Origin: Geothermobacter ehrlichii
Lineage (GTDB): Bacteria; Desulfobacterota; Desulfuromonadia; Desulfuromonadales; Geothermobacteraceae
DNA length: 64,000 bases
Direction of reading: 5' to 3'
Assembly: GCF_008124615.1 (NCBI RefSeq)
Contig: NZ_VNIB01000012.1
Coordinates: forward strand, 1-64,000
The position numbers were made by a program, and so were the translations under genes. The notes under the pieces are model-generated. The model ran no database searches. It had not been told where the DNA came from and worked only from the letters and a program-made list of their open reading frames with translations. Positions 4,864-45,915 of the stretch are shown one piece after another; position 1 is the first letter of the stretch; every line of letters starts with the position of its first letter.

Positions 4864-5352
4864 CTATCCCAGCTTCCGGTCCAGCCCGCGGTACTGCACC
4901 GCCTCGGCCAGGTGCGGCTGGCGGATCCGCTCCTCCCCGGCCAGATCGGCGATGGTGCGGGCGACCTTGAGGATGCGTGCGTAACTGCGGGCCGACATCC
5001 CCAGCCGGTCGACCACCATTTCCAGCAGCTTTTCCCCTTCGCTGTCCAGTCGGCAGAACTGCTTCAGGTGCCGGGCCTGCATCTGGCTGTTGGTGTGCAG
5101 GCCGAAGGGTTCCAGGCGTTGCCGCTGAATCTGTCGCGCCGCCTCCACCCGGGCGCGGATGGCGGCGGAAGGCTCGGCGCCGGTGGTGGCGGCCAGGTCT
5201 TTGTGGGCGACGCGCGGCGCCTCGATGTGCAGGTCGATGCGGTCGAGCAGCGGGCCGGAGAGCCGGCTGCGGTAGCGCTGGGTCATCACCGGCGTGCACG
5301 AGCAGGGGTGCTGGGGATCACCCAGAAAACCGCAAGGGCAGGGGTGTGTGCC
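4864..5352 (-). pseudogene. comM: 3' fragment of comM/yifB (Mg-chelatase-like AAA ATPase)
   Basis: The minus-strand frame reads from HPCPCGFLGDPQHPCSCTP through QRYRSRLSGPLLDRIDLHIE to the TAG at 4864. It is collinear with the C-terminal third of ComM/YifB proteins, including the CPCG cysteine cluster and the Mg_chelatase C-terminal domain. The Walker motifs and the N-terminal Lon-like domain are missing because homology stops at about 5352. It abuts the HTH gene on the opposite strand, which marks a rearrangement breakpoint. Confidence 0.75.
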
Positions 5353-5405
5353 CCTTTACCAACAATCATCAATTCCCCCCACCACGTTTTAATATCGCCA
5401 CCGAA

Positions 5406-5846
5406 TTGACGCTGCCGCAGCCTCCTGAGCTGGAGAAAGAGCCGGCCACCCTGGGCGAGCACCTGCGCCGGAAGCGGATTGAATTGGGTCTGGAGCAAAA
5501 AGAGCTTGCCGCCATGCTGGGGGTCAGCGTCTCAACCATCTGGAACTGGGAGAACGGATGGTCTATTAACTGGCAGTATTACCCTCAAATCATTCGCTTT
5601 CTCGGCTACAATCCTATTCCTATACCGGAAGGAACAATCCAAAGGCTTGAATGGTACAAGCGAATCAAAGGATTGGACCTGGTAATGCTTGGGAAAGAGC
5701 TGGGGCGTCATCCTGAACAGGTTTCAGAATGGTTGAGAGGGGTCCGTACCCCTTGCAAACGGAACATGCGGGTCATTGAGGAATTTCTGGAAGAAAGGCT
5801 GGAAGCCATGCCTACACCTGCGGCAAAATGTTCAAACGAAACTTGA
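5406..5846 (+). CDS. XRE-type helix-turn-helix DNA-binding protein
   Basis: An XRE HTH is clear (LGEHLRRKRIELGL, then ELAAMLGVSVSTIWNWENG), followed by a second HTH-like unit (LGKELGRHPEQVSEWLRG). It is probably a small DNA-binding regulator. The start is unclear: the frame is open far upstream into the comM remnant and no ribosome binding site is obvious. The TTG at 5406 is the first plausible start beyond the breakpoint, and an ATG-less N-terminal truncation is possible. umuD lies 80 bases downstream. Confidence 0.6.
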   Translation: MTLPQPPELEKEPATLGEHLRRKRIELGLEQKELAAMLGVSVSTIWNWENGWSINWQYYPQIIRFLGYNPIPIPEGTIQRLEWYKRIKGLDLVMLGKELGRHPEQVSEWLRGVRTPCKRNMRVIEEFLEERLEAMPTPAAKCSNET

Positions 5847-5928
5847 AAGGCCGCATGGCGTGTCGTGTTCTGTCACAAACGGCCTGTATTCTTCGCGATG
5901 CGAACAGGTGGATAGATTGGAGACCTGC

Positions 5929-6360
5929 ATGAAGGCAAACCTGATTGGTCGCGCCGGCGAGACCACCCGGCTCGACATTCCCCTCTTTCTCGACGCGGTG
6001 CCAGCCGGCTTTCCCTCGCCGGCCTCCGACTACAAGGAGCGCACCCTCGATCTGAACGAACTCTGCGTCAGGAATCCCGCCGCCACCTACTTTGTCCGGG
6101 CGCAGGGGGATTCGATGGTCGAGGCCGGCATCTTTCCCGGTGACGTGCTGGTGGTCGACCGCTCGTTGGAGGCCCGGCACGGCGATGTCGTCATCGCCGA
6201 GTTCAACGGCGAGCTGACGGTGAAGAAGCTGGAACTGAAACCCGAGGTGCGGCTGGTGCCGATGAACAGCCGGCACGCGCCGGTGCCGGTGCCAGAAGGG
6301 GCCGAGCTGGAGATCTTCGGTGTGGTGACCACGGTCATTCATAGTTTACGCAAGCCATGA
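5929..6360 (+). CDS. umuD: UmuD-like SOS polymerase accessory / S24 autoprotease
   Basis: This LexA-like S24 peptidase matures itself and partners with UmuC in translesion DNA polymerase V. The cleavage site PAGFPSP (Ala26-Gly27) is visible. The serine is Ser62 in GDSM, and the expected lysine is Lys99 in TVKKL, 37 residues later as in E. coli UmuD. The length is 143 residues. The ATG at 5929 is chosen because it gives the family N-terminus. The stop overlaps the umuC start (ATGA), showing translational coupling. No convincing LexA box was found upstream. Confidence 0.9.
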
Positions 6361-7616
6361 GACGCTTCGCCCTGGTCGACTGCAACAACTTCTATTGCAG
6401 CTGCGAGCGCCTGTTCCGTCCGGACCTGAAAAAGGTGCCGGTGGTCGTGCTCTCCAACAACGACGGCTGCATCGTCGCCCGCAGCCCGGAGGCCAAAGCA
6501 CTGGGGATTGGCATGGGCGTGCCCCTGTTCAAGGTACGGGACACAGTGAAACGGCACAACGTCCGGGTCTTTTCCTCCAACTACGCCCTCTACGGCGATA
6601 TCTCCGCCCGGGTGATGCAGACCCTCGAACGGTTCAGTCCCGATCTGGAGATCTACTCCATCGACGAGGCCTTTCTCGACCTGAGCGGCGTCACATCGCC
6701 GGTCGAGTACGGACAGGAGATCCGCGCCACCGTCCACAAGCACGTCGGCGTGCCGGTGAGTGTCGGCATCGGGCCGACCAAAACCCTAGCCAAGCTGGCC
6801 AATTACGCGGCAAAGAAGTTCAAGGCAACCCAGGGTGTTGTCGATCTGAGCGACCCACAAAAGCGGCAGCGCCTGCTGGCGATCACGCCTGCCGGCGAGG
6901 TCTGGGGCGTCGGCCGGCGGCTTGCCGCCAGCCTGCAGAAGCTGGGCGTGACCACGGCGCTCGATCTGGCCCGCAGGGAGCCGCGCCGCATCCGGCGGCG
7001 CTTTTCGGTGGTGCTGGAGCGGACCGTGCGCGAGCTGAACGGGGAAAGCTGCATCGGGCTGGAGGCGATGCCGGCGGCGAAAAAGCAGATCGTCTGCTCC
7101 CGCTCCTTCGGCGAGAAGCTTTCCGACTATGGGGAAGTACGCCAGACGGTGTGCGAGTTCGCCGCCCGCGCCGCCGAAAAGCTGCGGCGGGAGGGACTGC
7201 TGGCCCGCATGGTCCATCTTTTTATCCGCACCAGCCCGTTCGACGGTACCGGCCCCGGCTACAGCAACGCCGCCACCGGCACGCTGCCTTGTCCCAGCGC
7301 CGACAGTCTGGCGATTTTGGCCATGGTCACCCGCCTGTTCGACGGCATCTGGAAGGACGGCTGCCGTTACGCCAAGGCCGGGGTGATGCTCGGCGATTTC
7401 TGCACTCCCGACCAGGTGCAGCCCGATCTGTTCTCTGCCGGAACGGACCATGACCGGAACGGCAAGCTGATGCAGGCCGTCGACGCCATCAACCACAGCG
7501 GCAGGGGCAAGATCTGGTTCGGCGGCCAGCGGCCGCAAAAGGACTGGTTCATGCGTCGGGCGCACCTGTCGCCAGCCTACACGACACGCTGGGAGAGCAT
7601 TCCGGAGGTCGGGTGA
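6357..7616 (+). CDS. umuC: UmuC, Y-family translesion DNA polymerase V subunit
   Basis: This error-prone DNA polymerase copies past lesions once activated by UmuD'. Y-family motifs are present: the N-terminal metal-binding [17 protein letters not shown], then NDGCIVARS, and the catalytic [11 protein letters not shown] near residue 100. A helix-hairpin-helix thumb ([15 protein letters not shown]) and little-finger region follow. At 419 residues it matches full-length UmuC. It overlaps umuD by four bases. Plasmid and ICE umuDC pairs are common, so this may be acquired cargo. Confidence 0.93.
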
Positions 7617-7642
7617 GGGGAGAGAATGAATCGGGAGTCGCG

Positions 7643-7965
7643 CGTACTTCGGTGGAATCGCAATGTACACATGGACGTGGCCCAGGCACAAATGACCTTC
7701 CAAAACGTGAATCTCTCGTTGCTGGGCTAACTCTTGTTTCTCCTCTACCAAATGCTGCCGAACCCGGCCATCAAGAACTCTCTGACGGCACTTCGATGTC
7801 CAAACTACGTGATACTTGCAGTCCCAAACTGAATGACATAAGCTTTGTGTGCTGTCCAATGAAAGCTTCCCCTCTGTAAACTTTGAGCGGTTCACAGAGA
7901 GGACGCTTTCAAATTCCCCCCAACACTCTGCTAGTCCCCCATAAAGCCGGGGTTACCCGGTGTAT
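7643..7965 (-). mobile_element. tnpA: Truncated IS200/IS605-type element (tnpA N-terminal fragment)
   Basis: On the minus strand, 7895 down to about 7643 encodes SVWDCKYHVVWTSKCRQRVL and later GHVHVYIAIPPKY. This is the N-terminal half of a Y1 HUH transposase of the IS200/IS605 group with its HxH motif. The C-terminal half with the catalytic tyrosine is missing, cut at the umuC 3' end. Upstream, at about 7933-7946, a small hairpin (CCGGG-GTTA-CCCGG) resembles the subterminal hairpin such elements use for end recognition. Confidence 0.65.
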
Positions 7966-7997
7966 TTACGTGTATTTACAGATAAGGAAGAACGGCC

Positions 7998-8363
7998 ATG
8001 CCAAGAATTAAAAACCAAGAAATTTTCGTAAAAAATGATAATAACAAATGGACGATAAACCTTTCCAAGTCTTTCTATGAAAAAGCCGCCATCTTTGCTG
8101 CTGCCTACAAGTTAAATCGATTCGCGACCATCCAAATCGAGCCTAAGGGCGAAAACGAGGTACTAGTAACTTTCTCCGGGATAAAGAGCTTGGAGTACGG
8201 CGTCACAGGCCAACAACTGGTGGAAGAGTTCTGTCGCGAAGTCAACGACCAACAATTGCGTCAAGAACTAAACCGCCAATTTGGAAGGCTACGTGATCTG
8301 ATTGTTGAACAGGCATTCAAGCCAGTGGCGAACCTCGAGGACAAGATCAATGGCAAGGACTAA
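7998..8363 (+). CDS. hxsD: His-Xaa-Ser system protein HxsD
   Basis: This 121-residue cytoplasmic protein of unknown biochemical role belongs to the His-Xaa-Ser (Hxs) system. Its identity rests on its size, its N-terminal YKLNRFATIQIEP segment and above all its position immediately before two radical SAM genes and an HxS-repeat peptide gene. It overlaps hxsB by 14 bases. HxsD might help recognise the HxsA precursor, as small partner proteins do in other radical SAM peptide systems; that is inference. A GGAAG ribosome binding site precedes the ATG. Confidence 0.8.
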   Translation: MPRIKNQEIFVKNDNNKWTINLSKSFYEKAAIFAAAYKLNRFATIQIEPKGENEVLVTFSGIKSLEYGVTGQQLVEEFCREVNDQQLRQELNRQFGRLRDLIVEQAFKPVANLEDKINGKD

Positions 8364-9810
8364 CCGCTATCATATCCTTCCCTTTCAGTTTAAGAGAAGG
8401 GAAGACAACACCGTGCTGATGGTCAACGAAGCTGGCGATTACGTCTTTTTGCCGACCCAACAGTTCGAAGCTTTTGTCTGCCAAGATCTTGACACTAACA
8501 CGGAAACTTTCAAGACCCTCAAGGGCAAGCACTTTGTTGCCGAGGACGACCTGCCACTGGCGATTGATCTTTTAGCTAACAAATATCGCACGCGCAAAGG
8601 GTTTTTGAGGGACTTTACCTCTCTACACATGTTGGTCATAACCCTACGTTGCAACCAAGATTGTCAGTATTGCCAAGTCTCGGCCGAAAACGATACGGCA
8701 CGGGAGTTCGATATGAGTCCTGAGACAGCCCGCATCATTGTAGAGCGAATCTTCGAGGGACCGTCGAACGATATCAAAATTGAATTTCAGGGAGGAGAGC
8801 CGACCCTTAACTGGCCAGCCCTGACCGCGGCTGTTGAACATGCAGAGTCATTGAACCAGGTGGCTGGCAGGAATCTGTCCTTTGTCGTTTGCACAAATCT
8901 GACTTCGATCACCCGCGAACAACTTGAATTTTTTCGGGCCCACAATGTAAGCATTTCAACTTCTCTGGACGGGCCAGCCAACATCCACAACAAACACCGC
9001 ATACTGCGTAACGGCAGGGACACCTATACCGCCTTTCTGAATAACCTCGCCCTAGCCCGTGAAATCTGCGGACATAACGCAGCCTCGGCTTTGATGACTA
9101 CGACGCGCAGTAATTTAGACTCCCTCCAGCAAGTTGTGGATGAATATATCCGGCTCGGATTCCAAGGCGTATTCTTCCGATCTCTAAACCCTTATGGCAT
9201 GGCAGCAGAAAATCAGACGACCCTTGCCTATACTCCAGCTGAGTGGTTGGCTGCCTATCGTTCAGGCCTAGACTACATAATTGCTAAGAACCTCGAAGGA
9301 CACCATTTCCCTGAATTTTTCGCGACGATCTTGTTGACACGAATCTTGACGCCTTTCGCCACTGGATTCGTGGACTTACAATCGCCAACAGGAGCTGGAA
9401 TTGCCGGTGCAATCTACGATTATCAGGGGGATGTTTTCCCTTCCGACGAAGCGCGCATGCTGTCCCGCATGGGGGACAACTATTTCAGGCTCGGAAATGT
9501 TTGGGAATCGACGTTCAAGGAGATTTTTAACGGTCGCAAGTTGCGAGACATCGTTAAACAAGGAAATTTGGAAGTGATGCCTAGCTGTGCCTCCTGCGTC
9601 TACCAAGCGTACTGTGGTGTTGACCCAGTACGTAATTACCTAGAGACAGGAGATGTTGTCGGACATCGGCCTGAGAGCGATTTTTGCCAAAAAGCCATGG
9701 GGGTGTTCGATATCCTATTCGACAAATTGCAGCGAAACGATGAGCAAGAAATGGCCGTATTCTGGTCTTGGATCACTAGGCGACCACTGGGCCGCGGAGA
9801 CAAATCATGA
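8350..9810 (+). CDS. hxsB: His-Xaa-Ser system radical SAM maturase HxsB
   Basis: This radical SAM enzyme (about 486 residues from the ATG at 8350) carries the 4Fe-4S motif CNQDCQYC (Cys101, 105, 108) and the GGEP motif (FQGGEPTLNW). A C-terminal SPASM-like cysteine region (CASCVYQAYCG, later DFCQKAMG) would bind auxiliary clusters, as in anaerobic sulfatase and peptide maturases. It probably modifies the HxsA peptide with HxsC. The start at 8350 is preferred over 8302 because it follows a GAGG site and gives a normal N-terminus. It overlaps hxsC by four bases. Confidence 0.9.
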   Translation: MARTNRYHILPFQFKRREDNTVLMVNEAGDYVFLPTQQFEAFVCQDLDTNTETFKTLKGKHFVAEDDLPLAIDLLANKYRTRKGFLRDFTSLHMLVITLRCNQDCQYCQVSAENDTAREFDMSPETARIIVERIFEGPSNDIKIEFQGGEPTLNWPALTAAVEHAESLNQVAGRNLSFVVCTNLTSITREQLEFFRAHNVSISTSLDGPANIHNKHRILRNGRDTYTAFLNNLALAREICGHNAASALMTTTRSNLDSLQQVVDEYIRLGFQGVFFRSLNPYGMAAENQTTLAYTPAEWLAAYRSGLDYIIAKNLEGHHFPEFFATILLTRILTPFATGFVDLQSPTGAGIAGAIYDYQGDVFPSDEARMLSRMGDNYFRLGNVWESTFKEIFNGRKLRDIVKQGNLEVMPSCASCVYQAYCGVDPVRNYLETGDVVGHRPESDFCQKAMGVFDILFDKLQRNDEQEMAVFWSWITRRPLGRGDKS

Positions 9811-10943
9811 AACAGTCGAAAGGCACCCCTTTTGGTCTCGCCAGAACAGTTTTGGCCCGTGTAACGACAACCCCTAAGAGCTTTCTGAGTAGACGGAACT
9901 ACGTATTCACGGGAGACGAGGGCGCCTATGGATATGCGGCCTGCCTTTCCTCCAATAAATTAGGCCCAGGGGTTAAGGGAGTCGGCAACCTCCCCCACGA
10001 ATTCCTATCCCTTGATCTTCAAGATAACGATATAGTCCTGATCTCTCCAGCGGGGGAGGTTTCAGTGGTATGGGAAGCTGGGTCGCGACAGAATAGCTTG
10101 CTCCTGACCGAAGCCTGCGACTGTCGGTGCCTGATGTGCCCTCAGCCGCCAAAGAAGCATGACCCTGCCCTGCCGAAAATTGCTAGGAATATTCTTGCCA
10201 TGCTCACCCCAGAAGAAGTCGAAGGGCTTTGCTTGACTGGTGGTGAACCATCTTTGCTTCGGGATGAATTCGTCGCGATACTCGAGATGATCCGAATCCG
10301 CTTCAAGGATCGACCTACGGTCCTACTTACCAACGGCAAGAATTTTTCCGATTTTGAGTACGCTAAGAGATGTGCTATCGCTGCGGGGGGACAAGTTATC
10401 TTCTGCGTGAGTTTGCATGCCGATAATGACCGTGATCACGATAGGATTGTCGGGGTTAAGGGGAGTTTCGCCAAGACCGTCAAAGGAATTACCAATCTAG
10501 CCAAGCTTAGAGTGCCCATCGAGATTCGCTTTGTGGTCAACCGTGTCAATGCAGGACAGATGGGGCGGTTCGCAGATTTTGTTTACCGAAATTTCCCCTT
10601 TGTCGTTCATGTCGCTTTTATGGCTATGGAAATACGGGGTTTGGCTGACGAAAATATCGACACGATCTGGATCGATCCGTTCGATTACGGAGAACAAATG
10701 AGACATGCAGCAAACCAGCTTGCCCTGAGGGGAGTGCCGGTGTCGATCTACAACATGCCCCTATGCCTGCTTCCCCGAGCGGGTTGGGATTTTGCTCGCC
10801 AGTCTATATCCAGATGGAAAAACAGTCTGGTCGAAACATGTGCTCCCTGTGCGGTGAAAGAACAATGCGCCGGGGTTTTTGCCACATCTAGCAGGCAAAG
10901 TGCCTATTTGCGCCCCGTTTTGGAGAAGATTGACAATGGGTAA
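9807..10943 (+). CDS. hxsC: His-Xaa-Ser system radical SAM maturase HxsC
   Basis: This is the second radical SAM protein of the Hxs cluster (378 residues). The cluster-binding cysteines are in CDCRCLMC (Cys104, Cys108 and Cys111 fit CxxxCxxC; Cys106 is extra), and CLTGGEPSLL is the SAM-binding GGE motif. A C-terminal CAPCAVKEQCAG segment suggests an auxiliary cluster. It is translationally coupled to hxsB (ATGA). The exact chemistry of HxsB/HxsC has not been established in the literature known to me. Confidence 0.9.
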   Translation: MKQSKGTPFGLARTVLARVTTTPKSFLSRRNYVFTGDEGAYGYAACLSSNKLGPGVKGVGNLPHEFLSLDLQDNDIVLISPAGEVSVVWEAGSRQNSLLLTEACDCRCLMCPQPPKKHDPALPKIARNILAMLTPEEVEGLCLTGGEPSLLRDEFVAILEMIRIRFKDRPTVLLTNGKNFSDFEYAKRCAIAAGGQVIFCVSLHADNDRDHDRIVGVKGSFAKTVKGITNLAKLRVPIEIRFVVNRVNAGQMGRFADFVYRNFPFVVHVAFMAMEIRGLADENIDTIWIDPFDYGEQMRHAANQLALRGVPVSIYNMPLCLLPRAGWDFARQSISRWKNSLVETCAPCAVKEQCAGVFATSSRQSAYLRPVLEKIDNG

Positions 10944-11013
10944 TGTCTGTGCTTTATTTGGTCTTAGTTTAGTTGGTTTGACCATTTGACAACACGAGAT
11001 GGTAGGGGGATAT

Positions 11014-11268
11014 ATGAAAAAAATAATTGCGAAAGTCGGATTGTTTGTTGCAGGCCTGCTTGCGCTTGGCGGAGCCAACACTTCAGTTCAGGCTGACCAA
11101 GGCATTGCCAACGTCGACGAAAACACCCCATTGTATCTAGACCATGCGCCGTCCCAAGTCTCTAACGGAGAGGTTGTCGTCGGCTGGCATTACTCACACA
11201 GGAGCCACGAATCTCATTACTCCCACGAGTCCCATTACAGCCACCGTTCGCACTACTCCGGGTATTGA
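11014..11268 (+). CDS. hxsA: His-Xaa-Ser repeat protein HxsA (exported substrate peptide)
   Basis: This 84-residue precursor has a Sec-type signal peptide (residues 1-27, cleavage probably after VQA). A short linker is followed by an uninterrupted run of eight His-X-Ser triplets at residues 59-82 (X is Tyr, Arg or Glu), ending in Gly-Tyr. This is the hallmark HxsA architecture. The ATG at 11014 is chosen over 10999 because it starts the signal peptide and follows a GGGGG site. It is the likely substrate of HxsB and HxsC. The envelope location and metal-like His spacing suggest a surface or metal-binding role, but that is speculation. Confidence 0.85.
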   Translation: MKKIIAKVGLFVAGLLALGGANTSVQADQGIANVDENTPLYLDHAPSQVSNGEVVVGWHYSHRSHESHYSHESHYSHRSHYSGY

Positions 11269-11286
11269 CCGAGAATTCGCAATCTC

Positions 11287-11318
11287 CCAAGAGCCAGCTT
11301 CCTCAAGCTGGCTCTTGG
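11287..11318 (+). terminator. Terminator after hxsA
   Basis: A perfect 14-bp stem (CCAAGAGCCAGCTT / AAGCTGGCTCTTGG) with a four-base loop sits 19 bases after the hxsA stop. The U-tract is short. It marks the end of the Hxs operon. Confidence 0.75.
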
Positions 11319-11484
11319 TGTTTAGATAGCAAAAGAAACATTTCAAGCTAGGCGGGCTCATAAAATTATTGCCGCCACAGTCCTCTCACGAGGAATCCCA
11401 AACCAGTAGTGAAACCCACTTCTCCTTTTGTTCTTGATCCGACAAACGGCTCAATGAAACTGCCCCTTCCCCCCAACCCCATTT

Positions 11485-11658
11485 CACAGGCGACACCTTT
11501 CGGAGGCCGTCGCCTGTGGCAAAACCAAGCCCGACATTCTTTACCCGCTCCTGCCACAACCCTCGCGTCTGCCGCTACCAGCAGGCAATCGGTAGCTGTT
11601 ACAGTCGAACTCCCTATCCGGCCCGAATCGCCTCCATCCAGCAGGAAGGAGGCAATCC
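11485..11658 (+). promoter_or_regulatory. Structured leader before the first transfer operon
   Basis: A 10-bp hairpin (CACAGGCGAC / GTCGCCTGTG, 11485-11518) is followed by GCCTCC at 11630-11635, which is complementary to the GGAGGC ribosome binding site at 11648-11653. This resembles the leaders found before many genes at 26-37 kb, although the arm-exchange scheme is less clear here. The remainder of the 11319-11658 gap holds no gene. Confidence 0.4.
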
Positions 11659-12393
11659 ATGATCCCCCACGACCTTCTGGAGAAGTACAACCTCCCTGAA
11701 GATCAGGTCGCCGACGCCATCGAAAAGGCCATCTCTCGCACCCTCTCCGCCATGTTCGATCTGGACATTCTGGTGCGACTCGACGACCGGCTTGAAATCT
11801 ACGCCCTGAGCAAGTCCTTTCTGGACACCGATCCCAGACCGATCGATCCGCGCGGCCTCTCCAGACAGGTCCGGCGGCAGATCCGCTACCAGATCGAGCG
11901 GGAGCTGGAAAAGCGCCAGGCCATCCACGAAGGGAACCTGCTGCGCTCTCTCCGTGGACAGATTGTAAAGGGCGAAATCCGCCAGGTATCCTCTTCCGGT
12001 GACGTGGCCGTGGTTCTGGAAGTCGAGGACCACTTCCGCAACGTCGCCATCACCGGCCTCTGCCCGTTCCGACATGTCCCTCCCAAGGAACGAGGCACCT
12101 TCAAGCCAGGCGTCGTCCGTTCCTTCCTGGTCACCAGTGTCCTGCCCGTACAGCAGAAGGACCGCTACAAAGTCCAGATTCGACTGAGCCGAACTTCCAA
12201 AACCCTGCCCAAGCTTCTGCTACGGGAAGAAACAGGCGTCAAGGGCATACGCTGCACAAGGCGCATCGCCGGCGCCTTCAGCGAGATCGAGTCACCGCAA
12301 TTTCTTCCCAAAACCGCGATCCGCAAGGTCGCCGACGAACTGGGAGAAAGGATCATCGTCCGTGTCGTTCTTCCGGAGAAGAAAACCGCCTGA
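11659..12393 (+). CDS. NusA-like transcription factor at head of transfer operon
   Basis: This 244-residue protein follows the NusA plan. The N-terminal helical segment (VADAIEKAISRTLSAMFDLD) parallels NusA's RNA-polymerase-binding domain. An S1-like barrel follows (GQIVKGEIRQV, then FKPGVVRSFLVTSVLP, then KVQIRLSRTSKTLPKLLLRE) in the same order as NusA's S1 region. A short KH-like tail comes last, but the two full KH domains are absent. It could promote elongation through the transfer genes. The match is by eye, so the call is moderate. It overlaps the next gene by 32 bases. Confidence 0.5.
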   Translation: MIPHDLLEKYNLPEDQVADAIEKAISRTLSAMFDLDILVRLDDRLEIYALSKSFLDTDPRPIDPRGLSRQVRRQIRYQIERELEKRQAIHEGNLLRSLRGQIVKGEIRQVSSSGDVAVVLEVEDHFRNVAITGLCPFRHVPPKERGTFKPGVVRSFLVTSVLPVQQKDRYKVQIRLSRTSKTLPKLLLREETGVKGIRCTRRIAGAFSEIESPQFLPKTAIRKVADELGERIIVRVVLPEKKTA

Positions 12394-13741
12394 ACCGTCC
12401 ACGCTGATCGGCACCGGGGTCCACCTGGACAATCCAACCAGGATTGTCCCCATTCGACTACCGGAGCGGGACCGGAAACGTCACACCTTCGTTTTCGGCA
12501 CCACCGGAGTCGGCAAGACCCGTCTGGCCGAACTGATGATCGAGCAGGACATTCGGGCCGGCAAGAACATCGTCTTTCTCGATCCCAAGGGCGACCAGCA
12601 GATCTTCACCAAGATCTTTGACGTGGCCCGGCAGTGCGGCAGGGAAAACGAGATGCAGCTGGTCACGCCGATCTATCCCGAATACTCGGCTGTGATAGAC
12701 CCTATGGCCTACTACTTCATGCCCGATGAACTGGTCGGCCACCTGGTTGCCGGCATCAAGGACGGCAAGGAGCCTTTCTACCGCAACGTCGCCAAGGAGG
12801 TCGCCACGGCAGTCGTCACCGGAACCATCCTGCTGGCCAGGGCCGAGGGCCGCCCACCGATCATGAACATCGACCTGGTGCGTCAGGCCATCCGCCGCTC
12901 CGCCCTCGAAGAGATGCGCCAGGCTCTGGAGCGGATAGCCGACCCCGAGGCGCAATCTGTCGCGGGAGTCCTTCAGGACATCCTCGACTCACCGCAGGGC
13001 TACTACGAGAAGGTCAGCACCACCCTCCGCACCGCCCTGAACGAACTGTCCAGTGGCAACATCGGCCAGATCATCGGCAAGGCCGAATCCAATCTCTTCA
13101 TCGAACGCCTGGAACAGGGGCAGGGCGTCATCCTGGTGGTCCATACCGGCTCGATGATTACCCGCGAGGCCGGAGAAACCCTGGGACGGGTCATCCTCTC
13201 CATGATCCAGTCCTTCGTGGGCCGGGTCTACCTTTCCGGCCGCCAGAGAATCGACCGGGGGCTGTCCATCTACATCGACGAGGCGCAGTCCCTTTTCTAC
13301 AGGGGCGTCGAGGACCTGTTCGCCAAGGCCGGGTCCGCCGGCGTCATGGTCCAGGCGTTCGCCCAGAGCGTCAACCAGCTCTATTCCGTCCTGGGAGAAT
13401 CAGCGGCCAAGGCCATTCTCGACAACACCAACACCAAGATTTTCATGCGTGCGCCCGACCCGGAAACCGCCGAGTACGTGGTGCAGCACTTCGGCAGGAA
13501 GAAAACCCTGTCCACCATCTACAACCCGGCCCAGGTCACCACCCGCGAGATCGAAGAGGACGTGCTGAGGGTGCAGGACGTTCTGGACCTTCAGCCACGC
13601 GAACTCTTCATCATGACCTATTCGGGCCGGTATCGGGGAAAAACGGCGGAGGTCGAGGACCCGAAGCTGACCATCCAGTTTCCGGACGCCCCGGCCATCA
13701 TCCGGGCCGACCGGAGCATCGGGGAGCGCCATGCCGTCTGA
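12362..13741 (+). CDS. traD: Conjugative coupling ATPase, TraD/VirD4-like (T4CP)
   Basis: This hexameric ATPase links the relaxosome to the secretion channel. Walker A (GTTGVGKT) lies near residue 46, FLDPKGDQQ near 76 and Walker B (LSIYIDEAQS) near 303. The C-terminal segment AKAILDNTNTKIFMRAPDPETAEY is typical of TraD/TraG-type coupling proteins. At 459 residues it lacks the usual N-terminal transmembrane pair, so it may be a soluble variant or rely on a partner for membrane attachment. The GTG start at 12362 lies inside the end of the previous gene. Confidence 0.85.
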   Translation: MSFFRRRKPPEPSTLIGTGVHLDNPTRIVPIRLPERDRKRHTFVFGTTGVGKTRLAELMIEQDIRAGKNIVFLDPKGDQQIFTKIFDVARQCGRENEMQLVTPIYPEYSAVIDPMAYYFMPDELVGHLVAGIKDGKEPFYRNVAKEVATAVVTGTILLARAEGRPPIMNIDLVRQAIRRSALEEMRQALERIADPEAQSVAGVLQDILDSPQGYYEKVSTTLRTALNELSSGNIGQIIGKAESNLFIERLEQGQGVILVVHTGSMITREAGETLGRVILSMIQSFVGRVYLSGRQRIDRGLSIYIDEAQSLFYRGVEDLFAKAGSAGVMVQAFAQSVNQLYSVLGESAAKAILDNTNTKIFMRAPDPETAEYVVQHFGRKKTLSTIYNPAQVTTREIEEDVLRVQDVLDLQPRELFIMTYSGRYRGKTAEVEDPKLTIQFPDAPAIIRADRSIGERHAV

Positions 13742-23362: not shown

Positions 23363-24511
23363 ATGACTCACGAACCGCAATACATCTGGCAGCATCCGTC
23401 CTGGCCCAACTTTCGCAAGGACAGTGAGGCACTGATAAAGCCCCTTGGAGAATGCCGCTTTAAACAGGGCTCCCTCTTGGCCCAAATGCGCGAGCTGGGG
23501 ATGGAGGTCCGGCAGCAGGCCAGAGCCGAAGTCCTGATCGAGGAAGCGTTAAAAACCTCTGAGATCGAGGGCGAAAAGCTCGACCCGAAGGCCGTGCGGT
23601 CGTCAGTAGCCCGCCGGCTGGGCCTGCCTACGGCCGGCTTGCCGGAAATCCGGGACCGACATGCCGATGGCGTGGTTGAGATTTTGCTCGACGCAACCCG
23701 GAACCATGACAAACCGTTGACGGCTGAAAGGCTGTTCGGTTGGCATGCGGCGCTCTTTCCTACCGGATACTCAGGCCTGCAGAAGATCCGGGTCGCAGCC
23801 TGGCGCGACGACCTGGATGGCCCGATGCAGGTCGTTTCCGGTCCCGTGGGACGGGAGAAGGTTCACTACGAGGCGCCTCCCGCCAAACGGGTGCCCCGCG
23901 AGATGGAGCGGTTTTTACACTGGTGGGAAGAAAGCAGCCAGAAGGAAGACGGCCTTCTGCGGGCGGCGGTGGCCCATCTGTGGTTTGTCGCCATCCATCC
24001 TTTCGACGATGGCAATGGCAGGATTGCCCGCGCCCTGACCGAAATGGCACTGGCCCAGGACGAAGCCCTCGCGATCCGTTACTACAGCCTGTCCTCGCAG
24101 ATCATGGCTGACAGCGCTTCCTATTACTCCGTCCTCGAACGGACCAACAAGGGAGATGGCGAGATAACCGGATGGCTCCTGTGGTTCCTCGACTGCATGT
24201 CCAGAGCCATCCTGCGGTCAAACGAACTGCTGACCAATGTTCTGGTCAAGGCCCGCTTCTGGCAACGCCATGTCCAGACGGAACTCAACGACCGGCAACG
24301 CAAGGTCATCAACCGCCTTCTGGAAGCCGGCCCGGACGGATTCGTGGGGGGCATGACCAACCGCAAATATGCCGGCATGACACATGTCAGCCGGGCAACG
24401 GCGCAAAGGGAGCTGGCCGATCTGGTCAACAAGGGCATCCTGCGACAGAACCAGCAAAGAGGACGAAACGTCAGCTATAGCCTTGTCTGGGAGGATTCCG
24501 TCCACCTGTAG
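23363..24511 (+). CDS. Fic-family protein with DUF4172-type N-terminus
   Basis: Fic proteins transfer AMP or another nucleotide part to target proteins. The catalytic motif HPFDDGNGRIAR is intact near residue 212. A class II-type autoinhibitory segment (TSEIEGEKL, near 68) is present, so activity is likely held in check. The N-terminus (WQHPSWPNFR) fits DUF4172 and the C-terminus carries a winged-helix-like region (MTHVSRATAQRELADLVNKG) suggesting DNA binding. The gene is convergent with a second Fic gene 48 bases away. Confidence 0.9.
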   Translation: MTHEPQYIWQHPSWPNFRKDSEALIKPLGECRFKQGSLLAQMRELGMEVRQQARAEVLIEEALKTSEIEGEKLDPKAVRSSVARRLGLPTAGLPEIRDRHADGVVEILLDATRNHDKPLTAERLFGWHAALFPTGYSGLQKIRVAAWRDDLDGPMQVVSGPVGREKVHYEAPPAKRVPREMERFLHWWEESSQKEDGLLRAAVAHLWFVAIHPFDDGNGRIARALTEMALAQDEALAIRYYSLSSQIMADSASYYSVLERTNKGDGEITGWLLWFLDCMSRAILRSNELLTNVLVKARFWQRHVQTELNDRQRKVINRLLEAGPDGFVGGMTNRKYAGMTHVSRATAQRELADLVNKGILRQNQQRGRNVSYSLVWEDSVHL

Positions 24512-24559: not shown

Positions 24560-25780
24560 CTATCGGGGCTCTGAAAACTCGACGCCCTCGGGGTAGAGCC
24601 TAGGGAAATAGTAGCCGGCGACACTGGCCGGGAAGAACAGTCGAACCGGCCCTTTTTCACTGTCGGAAACAAGCAGTTTTCTGTCCAGCAGGCTTTTGAG
24701 GATACGGCGGGCGGTCCGCTCGGGGCGTCCCGTTATTCGGGCTGCCTCCCCGCGAGGGACTTCACCGCGCAACAGGGCTTCACGAAGCAGGTAGGCGGCC
24801 TCGGGTGCCAGTTCTCCGAAGCTCACCTGACGCTCCACGTATCCGGTCATCCTTTTTTGCAGACCGTCAAGCTCCAACAGGTCGGACATGAAATGGACCT
24901 GATCGAGGGCCATTTCCAGGAAGAAGGTACAGAAGGCGACCAGCCCACGGTTCGACAGGTTGCCGCGTCCATCCAGATCCCCCTGCCGGTGCGCGTCGGC
25001 TCCCGCCAGGGCAGCCAGGTAGGCTTCCCGGTTACGGGCAAGCCCCCGCGATACGGTCCACAGGCCATGGCCGTCGATTTGTGCCCTGATCAGGTAGGCG
25101 TGAGTGAACAGACGGGTGACCCGACCGTTCCCATCCAGAAACGGATGTATCCAGGCAAGGCGATGGTGGGAAGCCGCCGCCGCGATGACCTTGTTGACGG
25201 CGTTCAGCCTCTCGGGGCTGTACACCGCTTGGAAGCGGGACAAAAAATCGGGCAGGGCATGATGGCTAGGAGCGACATGGCGTCCGACGGTCACGTCCTC
25301 CTGGCGCAGCTCACCGGGGACCACCTGCTTGGTCGACCCGTCCGGAGCCTGGACATGGCAGAACTCCTCGGGCAATCGCGCGTAGAACTCCCGGTGAATC
25401 CAGCACAGAAAGTCATGTGAGCAAATATCCAGATCGGGGGATTTCCGCAACCTGGCTTCGATAAGCCTCTGCACTTCGATATGGGCGGCGCTTTCCATCT
25501 GCATGGCCCGTTTGGCCGGGTCGTGGGAATAGTCCCTGGCCAGGGCGCGTTCGATGTCGACCGGGTGGGTGTTGTGCCCCTCGATCAGGTTCGAGTAGTA
25601 GCTGTTCATCGAACGGACCAGCTCGACAACCGCCCGCCTTGTGACCGGGTGCAGAAACGAACTCAGGGCCGCCGAACGGCGGATGACCTCGACGGCCAGA
25701 TCGGTCAGGCTCGAATCGCCGACAGAAGGGAGCAATGGCTCCATTTCGGAGATGTTGCTGTACAGGGATGTTTCTGCCAT
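24560..25780 (-). CDS. Second Fic-family protein
   Basis: The 406-residue protein has an intact Fic motif (IHPFLDGNGRVTR, near residue 217) and an inhibitory segment (SNLIEGH, near 65). A C-terminal winged-helix region (GEAARITGRPERTARRILKS) is present. It differs from the neighbouring Fic protein in its N-terminal domain, so the pair is not a simple tandem duplication. It is probably a self-regulated or toxin-like cargo gene. Confidence 0.9.
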   Translation of the reverse strand: MAETSLYSNISEMEPLLPSVGDSSLTDLAVEVIRRSAALSSFLHPVTRRAVVELVRSMNSYYSNLIEGHNTHPVDIERALARDYSHDPAKRAMQMESAAHIEVQRLIEARLRKSPDLDICSHDFLCWIHREFYARLPEEFCHVQAPDGSTKQVVPGELRQEDVTVGRHVAPSHHALPDFLSRFQAVYSPERLNAVNKVIAAAASHHRLAWIHPFLDGNGRVTRLFTHAYLIRAQIDGHGLWTVSRGLARNREAYLAALAGADAHRQGDLDGRGNLSNRGLVAFCTFFLEMALDQVHFMSDLLELDGLQKRMTGYVERQVSFGELAPEAAYLLREALLRGEVPRGEAARITGRPERTARRILKSLLDRKLLVSDSEKGPVRLFFPASVAGYYFPRLYPEGVEFSEPR

Positions 25781-43803: not shown

Positions 43804-45915
43804 ATGACAGATCTCCAGCTCTTTCCCAAGGAAAAGGTCGTAGGAATTTTCCGAGGCTTCCAACAAGGAGGCATGGAGTTCCACGCCGACCTAGTCTTGC
43901 CGTACCGGAACGAGTTCCAGAACATCCCGATGCACGGACAATTCCTACTTGTGCAATTGGAGACGCCCGATGAGGCTGTGTTAGGCCGCATCGCCTCTTT
44001 ATCCTCGGAGGGCAAATTGTCTTTTGGTTCCGGCGAAGAGTTCAACATTCGCGCGGTCCGTGAGGATCGGCCGATTCCCGAAGATCTTAGGGAGCAATAC
44101 CTGAAATATAGGGTTAACATCCGAGTTCTTGGCGTACTGCGGCGTAATGGCAAAGGTCTGACCTTCGTCCCGTCGCATCGACGGCTCCCGCATGTAGGCA
44201 GCAAGGTAGCCTTTCCGAGCGATGAGGTGCTACGCGAGATCGCCGGCCACAACATCAATGGGGCGCCCATCGGCCACCTAGCCTTCGGCGAGTACATATA
44301 TGCAGCAGGAAACAGTTCATTTCAGTCACAAGAGTGGATGCAGGTGGTTTCTCCGGAGGTATTGGTTCGATTCCCGATAGAATCTCTTGTATCTCGCCGC
44401 AGTTTCATCTTTGCACGAGCTGGGTTTGGCAAATCCAATCTCAACAAGCTTCTTTTCTCGAAGCTTTATGAGAGAACGCCCTTCGTTACAAAACGCGCTG
44501 GCAAGCAAGTTCCCGTAGGCACCGTGATTTTCGACCCCGATGGTGAATATTTCTGGCCTGACGACAAGGGCCGTCCTGGTCTATGCGATGTTCCCGCCCT
44601 TGAGGACAAAGTTGTTGTTTTTACTGACAAGAAAAATCCAAGCCCCTTCTACCAATCGTTTGTCGCCGGCGGCATCAAGCTAGACATTCGCCGTCTACGC
44701 CCAAGCGATGTAATCGCAATTGCGCTCGGACCAGAACGTCAAGAGCAGCAAAATGTTCGGAAGTTGCGTGGGCTTCCACAGGCCAAATGGCAGGAATTGG
44801 TTGATTTGATTGATGCCAACGGCAACTCTGCAGATCTGGGTGAGCTCAAAAAGCTTCTCGATCTGCAAGACTCTCAAGAGGCTGAAGCGCTCGCTGCTAG
44901 AGGCAACATGACCACAATCGTGAAGATGCTACATGACAAAAGCAGCCAACTCATGGACATGCTGGTTCATGCGCTCTCCGAGGGGAAATTGTGTGTTATT
45001 GACGTCTCGCAGATGCGCGGTGGCCAGTCGTTGGTGCTCTCGGGTCTGATCTTGCGCCGGATCTTCGATCGGAACCAGCAGGAGTTCACAGCGGCCGATC
45101 CAAAGACCATCCCGACGATCGCAGTTGTCGAAGAGGCACAGTCGGTGTTGAACGAAAATGCACCGGCTGCCGAACCCTATATCGCCTGGGTGAAGGAGGG
45201 TCGTAAGTACGACCTTGGTGCACTGCTGATCACCCAACAGCCAGGCAGCATCCCTTCCGAGATTCTCAGTCAGGGCGACAACTGGTTTATCTTCCATTTG
45301 TTGTCGGCAGCGGATCTCACTTCACTGAAGAAAGCCAATGCCCATTTTAGCGACGATTTGTTGAGCTCTCTTCTCAACGAACCCATCCCGGGGCAAGGTG
45401 TGTTTTGGAGCTCGGTGGGAGGCAAGCCCTATCCAGTCAGCCTTCGCGCACTGTCATTCGAAAAGATGTACTCGATGCGGGACCATGACTACAACAAACC
45501 CGCCGGTCGCACTTACGCTCAGACGCTGCGCAGCATCTTCACTGAAATGAGACAGATTGCAAAGACAGCCCACAATCCCGAAACCAAAGGTACAGGCACA
45601 TTGTTTCCTACAGAGGTAGAAGCAGAAGAAGCCGAACCGGTGGATGTCATGGCAAACATCGAGCAGCGGGCAATTGAAGCATTTCGGGGGGATAAAGACA
45701 TCCGCCAAAAGCTAGAGTCTCCGAACGGCATGCCTTGGTATGGCGTTCAACATTTCCTGATTGACCACCTGCCAGAACACTTGGAAGACCGACGTCAGTT
45801 TGCCTACAATCTTGTCTCAAAAGCCATGACTGCTGTGTTTGGACCACAGCCCGCAGCATGGGAGACCTTTAAGAATCCGACCACGGGGAAAACGTGGATA
45901 AGGGCCAACAAGTGA
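43804..45915 (+). CDS. herA: HerA-like DNA translocase ATPase
   Basis: This 703-residue hexameric FtsK/HerA-type ATPase has an N-terminal beta-rich HAS-barrel region (1-150), Walker A GFGKSNLNK near residue 207, and DPDGEYFWPDDKG. Walker B is IAVVEEAQSV near 440, followed by GALLITQQPGSIPSEIL. It would drive DNA through a ring for the NurA nuclease. A long C-terminal extension (about 560-703) is not part of the core and may contact the methyltransferase or target. It overlaps the methyltransferase gene by 22 bases. Confidence 0.88.
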   Translation: MTDLQLFPKEKVVGIFRGFQQGGMEFHADLVLPYRNEFQNIPMHGQFLLVQLETPDEAVLGRIASLSSEGKLSFGSGEEFNIRAVREDRPIPEDLREQYLKYRVNIRVLGVLRRNGKGLTFVPSHRRLPHVGSKVAFPSDEVLREIAGHNINGAPIGHLAFGEYIYAAGNSSFQSQEWMQVVSPEVLVRFPIESLVSRRSFIFARAGFGKSNLNKLLFSKLYERTPFVTKRAGKQVPVGTVIFDPDGEYFWPDDKGRPGLCDVPALEDKVVVFTDKKNPSPFYQSFVAGGIKLDIRRLRPSDVIAIALGPERQEQQNVRKLRGLPQAKWQELVDLIDANGNSADLGELKKLLDLQDSQEAEALAARGNMTTIVKMLHDKSSQLMDMLVHALSEGKLCVIDVSQMRGGQSLVLSGLILRRIFDRNQQEFTAADPKTIPTIAVVEEAQSVLNENAPAAEPYIAWVKEGRKYDLGALLITQQPGSIPSEILSQGDNWFIFHLLSAADLTSLKKANAHFSDDLLSSLLNEPIPGQGVFWSSVGGKPYPVSLRALSFEKMYSMRDHDYNKPAGRTYAQTLRSIFTEMRQIAKTAHNPETKGTGTLFPTEVEAEEAEPVDVMANIEQRAIEAFRGDKDIRQKLESPNGMPWYGVQHFLIDHLPEHLEDRRQFAYNLVSKAMTAVFGPQPAAWETFKNPTTGKTWIRANK

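Follow-up and report, generated by a model that had tools for sequence, protein, structure and literature searches.

A His-Xaa-Ser peptide-modification cassette inside a comM-integrated element of Geothermobacter ehrlichii, and a tentative reading of its chemistry

Hxs (His-Xaa-Ser) peptide-modification systems are annotated widely, yet we found no report of their product or of their chemistry among the matches listed from the openly licensed literature, in agreement with the initial annotation of the DNA studied here, which knew of no established chemistry. Here, we present an analysis of a 64,000-nucleotide stretch of the Geothermobacter ehrlichii genome (contig C12 of the source genome, positions 1-64000; hereafter the window). 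The window almost certainly holds a complete Hxs gene set, hxsD-hxsB-hxsC-hxsA, carried inside a mobile element that is integrated in the gene comM, and this confidence concerns the identity and the location of the cassette alone. For the function of this mobile cassette we put forward a more tentative proposal, credible if somewhat short of probable, in which a leader-guided reaction would join His C2 to Ser C-beta in each H-x-S triplet of the substrate HxsA, forming a cyclophane per triplet before Sec export.

The four genes form one compact unit at 7998-11268 on the plus strand, exactly where the initial annotation had placed them and with the gene overlaps that it had described. The first gene, hxsD (ATG at 7998, stop at 8363), encodes an accessory protein of 121 residues that scores 69.8 bits against TIGR03976 (cut-off 50), and it overlaps by 14 bp with hxsB (ATG at 8350, stop at 9810), which encodes a radical S-adenosylmethionine (SAM) maturase of 486 residues with 594.8 bits against TIGR03978 (cut-off 370). 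A second radical SAM maturase of 378 residues is encoded by hxsC (ATG at 9807, stop at 10943), which is joined to hxsB by an ATGA overlap and scores 321.5 bits against TIGR03977 (cut-off 267.9). The substrate gene hxsA (ATG at 11014, stop at 11268) follows 70 bp after hxsC, behind a ribosome-binding-like stretch (GGTAGGGGG), and encodes 84 residues. HxsD, HxsB and HxsC thus all exceed the curated NCBIfam cut-offs of the Hxs families, and with the H-x-S array protein beside them they bear out the identity of the system. HxsA itself scores 35.8 bits against TIGR03979, below the cut-off of 121.65, and stays under the threshold of each of the four NCBIfam models (HxsA, A2, A3 and A4), as do 10 of the 10 relatives scanned among the 14 of its clade that have an array. 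By these scores the HxsA of the window appears to belong to a short, downstream class so far unmodelled in NCBIfam.

The cassette had been thought to lie next to the mobile element; in fact it lies within the element, which is about 79.3 kb long, with 2.65 kb between the left end and the start of hxsD. The comM gene is split into a 3' part (C12:5197-5349) and a 5' part (C12:84658-85152), both on the minus strand, and the break falls near codon 356 as counted in the intact comM open reading frame (ORF) of locus L151. As features, the severed 3' part occupies 4864-5344 (minus) and the 5' part ends at about C12:84670. A 16-bp repeat, GGTAAAGGGGCACACA, stands inverted at both comM junctions, on the minus strand at 5345-5360 on the left and on the plus strand at C12:84654-84669, outside the window, on the right, with a single exact match in the window and another in locus L143 (chance expectation 0.00). 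No direct repeat of at least 8 bases was found at the junctions in the stretches compared; the repeats there are inverted instead. A large serine recombinase ORF of 497 residues (C12:83208-84701; PF00239 and PF07508, the resolvase and recombinase domains) lies at the right end, so that a split target gene, end repeats and an integrase at one end mark the whole as an integrative element. This ORF (L143:7208-8701) was seen to cross the right-end repeat (8654-8669), its last codons and stop being supplied from the comM side, and the C-terminus of the recombinase should therefore differ between the integrated and the circular forms. Among the conjugation genes of the element are a traD-like gene, TraF and TraG_N. 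The cassette sits in an integrative element with conjugation genes inserted in comM, and it may be transferable, as the initial annotation suggested. One broad literature query, whose matches were not read, gave no name for this element family.

Of 98 related genomes, 7 carry the coupling-protein gene of the element; one of them is the genome of the window itself, and five of the other six were dissected (G051 was left out). Homologues of the ORF at 11659-12393 and of the traD-like coupling protein at 12362-13741, which form a conserved backbone on the plus strand (11659-13741; profile matches and comparison with related elements), are kept in 5/5 of the related elements, and the content upstream of them varies. 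This slot holds BREX genes in G050 (BrxC 1943 bits, PglX 1390.8), a type I restriction-modification system in G053, a C5 methylase, Vsr and a type IV-like nuclease in G049, and, in G003, a tyrosine integrase (PF00589) together with what by eye is an efflux set of the resistance-nodulation-division type; in G017 no clear content was recognised by eye. In G050, an SduA-like (DUF4263) gene also adjoins the BREX genes in the slot (L138:13705-14970; 515.1 bits in PADLOC). In the window, a lytic transglycosylase gene, intact in locus L137 (PF01464), has apparently been reduced to a short 3' remnant at about 11560-11659 (plus), as judged by eye, at a place where related elements have the gene. From these comparisons, the Hxs cassette is best described as exchangeable cargo of the comM-inserted element, and the slot in which it lies is occupied by defence systems and different cargo in relatives. 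The comM gene is also split in G050, and in G049 the repeat stands at the two comM junctions read with 2/16 differences. Uninterrupted comM matches are present in G003, G053 and G017, which implies that some related elements sit outside comM. Separately, the 3' end of comM occurs seven times in G049 and the 5' part once (G049:C1:3770648-3919099 and 4005497-4005997), where elements seem to be stacked in tandem in comM.

Such company makes it conceivable that the unit serves the element as a peptide weapon or for defence. Known defence genes occupy the same slot in 3 of the 5 related elements examined (PADLOC was run on ten ORFs from G050, G053 and G049 only, and nine matched), and 22 plasmid records and a Leptospira phage also carry Hxs genes. 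However, the slot takes other cargo as well, and two Vibrio parahaemolyticus strains are reported to have an Hxs set and a galactitol system at one and the same position of an island (PMC6537148); the unit has neither an immunity gene nor a protease, and long versions of HxsA often resemble cell-wall proteins. We regard a weapon or defence role as improbable. A benefit to host or element may be supposed. For Pseudomonas aeruginosa, PMC8446631 lists hxsABCD along with integrating-element and conjugation genes, and together with the Vibrio case this indicates that the exchange of the cassette as cargo occurs beyond the window.

The substrate HxsA of the window (MKKIIAKVGLFVAGLLALGGANTSVQA) consists of a Sec-type start with an AxA-like site, a spacer with the leader motif TPLYLDHA, and the C-terminal array WHYSHRSHESHYSHESHYSHRSHYSGY. 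As the initial annotation had noticed, the array comprises eight uninterrupted H-x-S triplets (11188-11259, plus strand, six-frame triplet scan), with X = Y,R,E,Y,E,Y,R,Y, and is followed by GY and the stop. Only one other run of at least two H-x-S triplets, HFSHKS at 44318 (two triplets), occurs in the six frames of the window. None of the 8 pairs of triplets that share their residues has identical DNA, which rules out a recent tandem duplication as the origin of this array and means that it is maintained by selection at the protein level. Over all the arrays described below, 54 of 609 such pairs share their DNA against 29.2 ± 4.5 after codon shuffling, and a small share of recent duplication is therefore apparent across the arrays as a whole.

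The proposed chemistry builds on known radical SAM enzymes that act on residues i and i+2. In PMC11002830, HaaB and ScaB are described as linking His C2 to the C-beta of Ala, YhhB to that of Arg, and MscB as linking Phe C4 to the C-beta of Ser. These enzymes use either His as the first or Ser as the third residue, and H-x-S unites both, which is why we propose a cyclophane between His C2 and Ser C-beta. HxsA would be synthesised with its Sec-type signal peptide, leader motif and array, and, before export, HxsB would hold the leader through its N-terminal domain, aided by HxsD. HxsB and HxsC would then remove the C-beta hydrogen of the Ser residues, and each of these carbons would be bonded to C2 of the imidazole two residues earlier, turning each H-x-S into a three-residue cyclophane whose X residue would point outward and hence be free to vary. 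The modified HxsA would then be exported to the periplasm or the surface; peptidoglycan-binding domains are frequent in the long versions. It speaks for the cyclophane that X is open in the relatives, H and S being fixed by the definition of the search. The absence of Cys from the HxsA of the window also counts in its favour, and it rules out thioether chemistry.

With 8 of its 24 array residues being His, the protein might also be viewed as mainly a metal-binding surface protein, in which the radical enzymes would adjust metal affinity or fix the shape and the cassette would serve as a stress or metal trait. Bonding at C2 should leave the imidazole with both its nitrogens, and in G003 the same slot is occupied by the efflux-like set recognised by eye. 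However, the ten ORFs of the window scanned between 5776 and 16000 include no metal gene, and in 11 annotated plasmid and phage neighbourhoods only chrA and an Fe-Mn superoxide dismutase were noted, both in L032. We consider a primarily metal-binding role unlikely.

To place the array among its relatives, we scanned 109 sources (the window, L003 and L022-L128). They were gathered with an alignment of twelve HxsB as query and comprise the best 80 of at least 569 relatives in the genome collection (at least 595 stretches), a sample that leans to relatives of the query and includes ten Pseudomonas loci, as well as 15 viral-contig loci; twelve stretches taken from public plasmid and phage records were added to these. 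The viral-contig loci appeared with the alignment query, whereas a single-protein query gave none, and one of them (L128, 18 bits to the HxsB profile) is hardly a relative. Arrays of at least 4 triplets were present in 96 sources, 101 arrays in total; the other 13 had none (L003, L039, L043, L050, L056, L059, L060, L062, L070, L110, L117, L127 and L128), which a contig end explains in some cases, not in all. Array length ranges from 4 to 9 triplets: 4 in one array, 5 in 24, 6 in 34, 7 in 26, 8 in 14 and 9 in two. The array ends at most 6 residues from the stop in 71 of the 101, is followed by more than 40 residues in 27 and is intermediate in 3. The short, array-terminal form is thus the rule and eight triplets is long (16 of the 101 arrays have 8 or 9), so that the window's HxsA is not the minimal substrate it had been taken for. 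Over all loci, the short arrays lie upstream in 47 cases and downstream in 24. Five loci (L051, L071, L075, L082 and L103) have two H-x-S arrays beside one best maturase set, the two differing in X (in L071, AAAAAA and SRSRY).

The restriction of X to Tyr, Arg and Glu, which had also been pointed out, holds for the peptide of the window and not for its relatives. Among 640 X positions, 14 kinds of residue occur, mostly Ser (256), Arg (110), Tyr (97) and Ala (82), followed by Gly (31), Thr (15), Glu (9), Val (9), His (8), Gln (7), Cys (5), Asn (5), Met (5) and Lys (1), with no D, F, I, L, P or W. Glu at X is rare; two of the nine are in the array of the window and two in the Smithella locus L037 of the same clade (X = SREEYR), and the final X is Tyr in 54 of the 101 arrays. 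The order of X, the comparison of which the initial annotation had suggested, was assessed by shuffling within 92 distinct arrays, a procedure that ignores kinship. Neighbouring triplets share X no more often than expected (173/494 against 168.6 ± 7.5), and triplets two apart do so in excess (174/402 against 137.4 ± 7.0, with 0 of 2000 shuffles as high). An alternation of bulky and small residues at lag 1 was not significant (185/494 against 190.4 ± 7.8). Arg avoids adjacent triplets (5 cases against 20.8 ± 3.0) and returns every second one (32 against 16.9 ± 2.8), and the pattern persists without the final X (4 against 19.0 ± 2.7 and 28 against 14.3 ± 2.5, respectively). As 25 of the 32 Arg pairs stem from long substrates, this pattern tells little about the peptide of the window, whose array, with just two Arg, cannot display it.

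Patterning at lag 2 could mean that the triplets act in pairs, and this bears on a further alternative within the same system, namely an ether or C-N bond from the Ser oxygen or carbon to the imidazole, or bonds between adjacent triplets. The gapless arrangement places the Ser of one triplet beside the His of the next, and ether bonds formed by a radical SAM enzyme are known from DarE (PMC9055067). Against this, long substrates supply most of the Arg share of the signal at lag 2. We judge such linkages decidedly unlikely.

A leader motif and the N-terminal range over which HxsB matches other maturases also speak for the cyclophane reading, and signs of export for the account as a whole. A signal-peptide-like start, defined simply as a basic start followed by a hydrophobic stretch, was present in 88 of 101 HxsA and in 188 of 2000 control ORFs, which supports the exported substrate of the initial annotation as a prediction. 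Between signal and array, a leader motif recurs, either PLYLxHA (in many rows near the window) or FVLKR (in many proteobacterial rows); it was found in 52 of the 88 leaders against 7.1 ± 2.5 after shuffling, with a pattern that had been defined after inspection of the sequences. Among the 27 long arrays, nine HxsA were scanned for domains, which gave PG_binding_1 in 6, Ig-like domains in 1 and none in 2. These findings suggest that modification of HxsA takes place in the cytoplasm and that export to the envelope follows. The one Ig-like case (L058:5473-6816) differs from the usual peptidoglycan-binding module in that its H-x-S array (X = RSRSRSRY) precedes bacterial Ig/cadherin-like domains (Big_9, three stretches).

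Both maturases carry extra cysteines, as had been proposed. In HxsB, seven Cys are invariant in 12/12 aligned sequences (CxxxCxxC plus C413, C416, C422 and C446), and in a wider set of 53 six are invariant and C446 is present in at least 90%; in HxsC, seven are invariant in 12/12 (CxxxCxMC plus C320, C345, C348 and C354). In each enzyme, three invariant Cys would serve the SAM cluster and the remaining four fit one auxiliary cluster. The structure model of HxsB (predicted local distance difference test, pLDDT, 92.5) has three strands and three helices in its first 82 residues, and the secondary structure of residues 1-88 fits a three-strand, three-helix recognition element of ribosomally synthesised and post-translationally modified peptides (RiPPs). 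By VIA-align, the model matches the thioether enzyme CteB (5wgg) over residues 10-464 (Z 35.3, root-mean-square deviation (rmsd) 4.0, 409 aligned) and TigE (8vpo) over 4-463 (Z 26.7, rmsd 4.6, 392 aligned). Both ranges start in the N-terminal domain of HxsB, where, by the program's own warning, the match is barely tested for residues before 85 and the number of residues aligned is not visible. The N-terminal part of CteB is a RiPP recognition element. For HxsD (model pLDDT 87.3), Foldseek gave no match to known folds at E <=0.001 and the best VIA Z was 7.9, a level common by chance; PqqD-like domains are not among the structural matches listed, a listing that excludes nothing.

The top structural match of HxsB by VIA-align is anSME (4k38; Z 36.5, rmsd 2.7, 357 aligned), an enzyme that acts on Cys or Ser. 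The Hxs enzymes might then perform another His/Ser chemistry, with C-beta oxidation of Ser to formylglycine, as in anSME, or stereo-inversion at its C-alpha, a second change made by the other enzyme, and an H-x-S spacing that serves to display His rather than to close a ring. That there are two maturases suggests two reactions. The match, however, is limited to HxsB residues 88-476 and excludes the N-terminal domain, and the regular His two residues before each Ser would exceed what a Ser-only reaction needs. We hold Ser oxidation or inversion to be somewhat unlikely.

Several observations weigh against the cyclophane proposal and the account built around it. Two radical SAM enzymes are more than a one-enzyme triceptide system needs for one simple bond. 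Many SPASM enzymes have two auxiliary clusters, and the invariant Cys of HxsB suffice for one only. The best structural matches are anSME and CteB, the latter a thioether enzyme, and ChlB, TigE and SuiB come after them. In a comparison with the best 25 of 71 matched NCBIfam families, HxsB remains under the cut-offs of the cyclophane maturases GrrM/OscB (74.8 of 310 bits), YhhB (73.8 of 445), AmcB (68.2 of 425), FxsB (57.7 of 370) and XyeB (56.2 of 450), and it scores higher with the PapB (125.1), anSME (93.3) and SCIFF (90.7) models than with these five. A Pfam search of HxsB residues 1-92 gave no match, which leaves the predicted leader-binding domain thinly based, and Cys occurs at X in some relatives (5/640). 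The slt remnant beside the cassette, finally, rests on visual judgement.

Relatives of HxsB are found under many phylum names. In the HxsB tree, the window belongs to a supported set of 16 rows (SH-aLRT 98) with Thermodesulfobacteriota, Myxococcota, Spirochaetota, Verrucomicrobiota and others, of which 15 have an array, downstream of hxsB in 15/15. The phylum labels change 25 times on this tree by a quick method, with a possible minimum of 16 and a shuffled mean of 39.1; metagenome bins, in which organisms may be misnamed, supplied many of the loci, and the mixing is therefore no proof of transfer. Among 58 related genomes, HxsB exceeds the cut-off in one, the window's own. In G053, a locus (L141; C1:2880000-2898000) has an HxsB-like gene (357.9 bits, just below 370) and an HxsC-like gene at about 6957-10116 (minus), adjoining an ORF without a Pfam match that has a His-rich stretch, SHCKDSHVNHWKDDHNNNSHSNGC, and no H-x-S triplets; this is possibly a sister system with another substrate. 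Extending the cyclophane proposal to the family, Hxs arrays could be ladders of up to nine adjacent His-C2 to Ser-C-beta cyclophanes on a secreted protein, forming a rigid imidazole-lined rod or, in the long forms, a cell-wall fitting, built before export and traded by mobile elements in a slot of phage-defence systems, a generalisation that we consider rather doubtful.

The surroundings of the cassette agree in part with the borders described earlier. Upstream, the element carries umuD and umuC (translesion polymerase V; 5776-7616, plus, NCBIfam above cut-off), and the insertion-sequence debris proved real, being a truncated IS200-type transposase at about 7641-7832 (minus; PF01797 48.5 bits, profile 1-64 of 121). 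Downstream, the supposed terminator is a strong RNA hairpin at 11288-11317 (plus) by folding, with -28.6 kcal/mol for 11266-11330 (z -4.7); its T tract is weak, and it is missing from the output of a simple terminator scanner. Two convergent Fic-family genes, one with DUF4172, lie farther into the element (23363-24511, plus, and 24560-25780, minus). Within the 64-kb window, no tRNA was found, nor any Rfam match at gathering scores.

The dataset offers a convenient test object, an HxsA of 84 residues with one Sec-like leader and one clean array, and a definite prediction, namely a loss of 2 Da per triplet if His and Ser are bonded; the leader motif and the N-terminal domain of HxsB indicate where to cut and mutate. 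The cassette is an ordinary member of the known Hxs family in a well-defined mobile setting. The Hxs system (TIGR03976, TIGR03977, TIGR03978 and TIGR03979) is credited to Haft and Basu in PMC9062424, and the window resembles it in its three maturation proteins above cut-off, its tight gene order and its adjacent repeat protein with a signal-peptide-like start; unlike the modelled forms, its HxsA is short, array-terminal and downstream (order D-B-C-A) and falls under the HxsA, A2, A3 and A4 cut-offs. Compared with integrative conjugative elements that carry exchangeable cargo, the setting is alike in the split comM, the terminal repeats, the large serine recombinase and the conjugation genes. 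The HxsB model matches CteB (5wgg, 5why) and TigE (8vpo) strongly, over ranges that start in the N-terminal domain of HxsB; it differs in that CteB forms thioether bonds according to the title of its PDB entry and the HxsA of the window lacks Cys. The triceptide enzymes HaaB, YhhB and MscB are likewise radical SAM enzymes with extra Cys, and their motif, as given in PMC11002830, joins residues i and i+2, the first aromatic or His and the third supplying C-beta, to which H-x-S is comparable; the Hxs maturases differ from them in belonging by score to another family, in the added second maturase and HxsD, and in acting on up to nine motifs in tandem.

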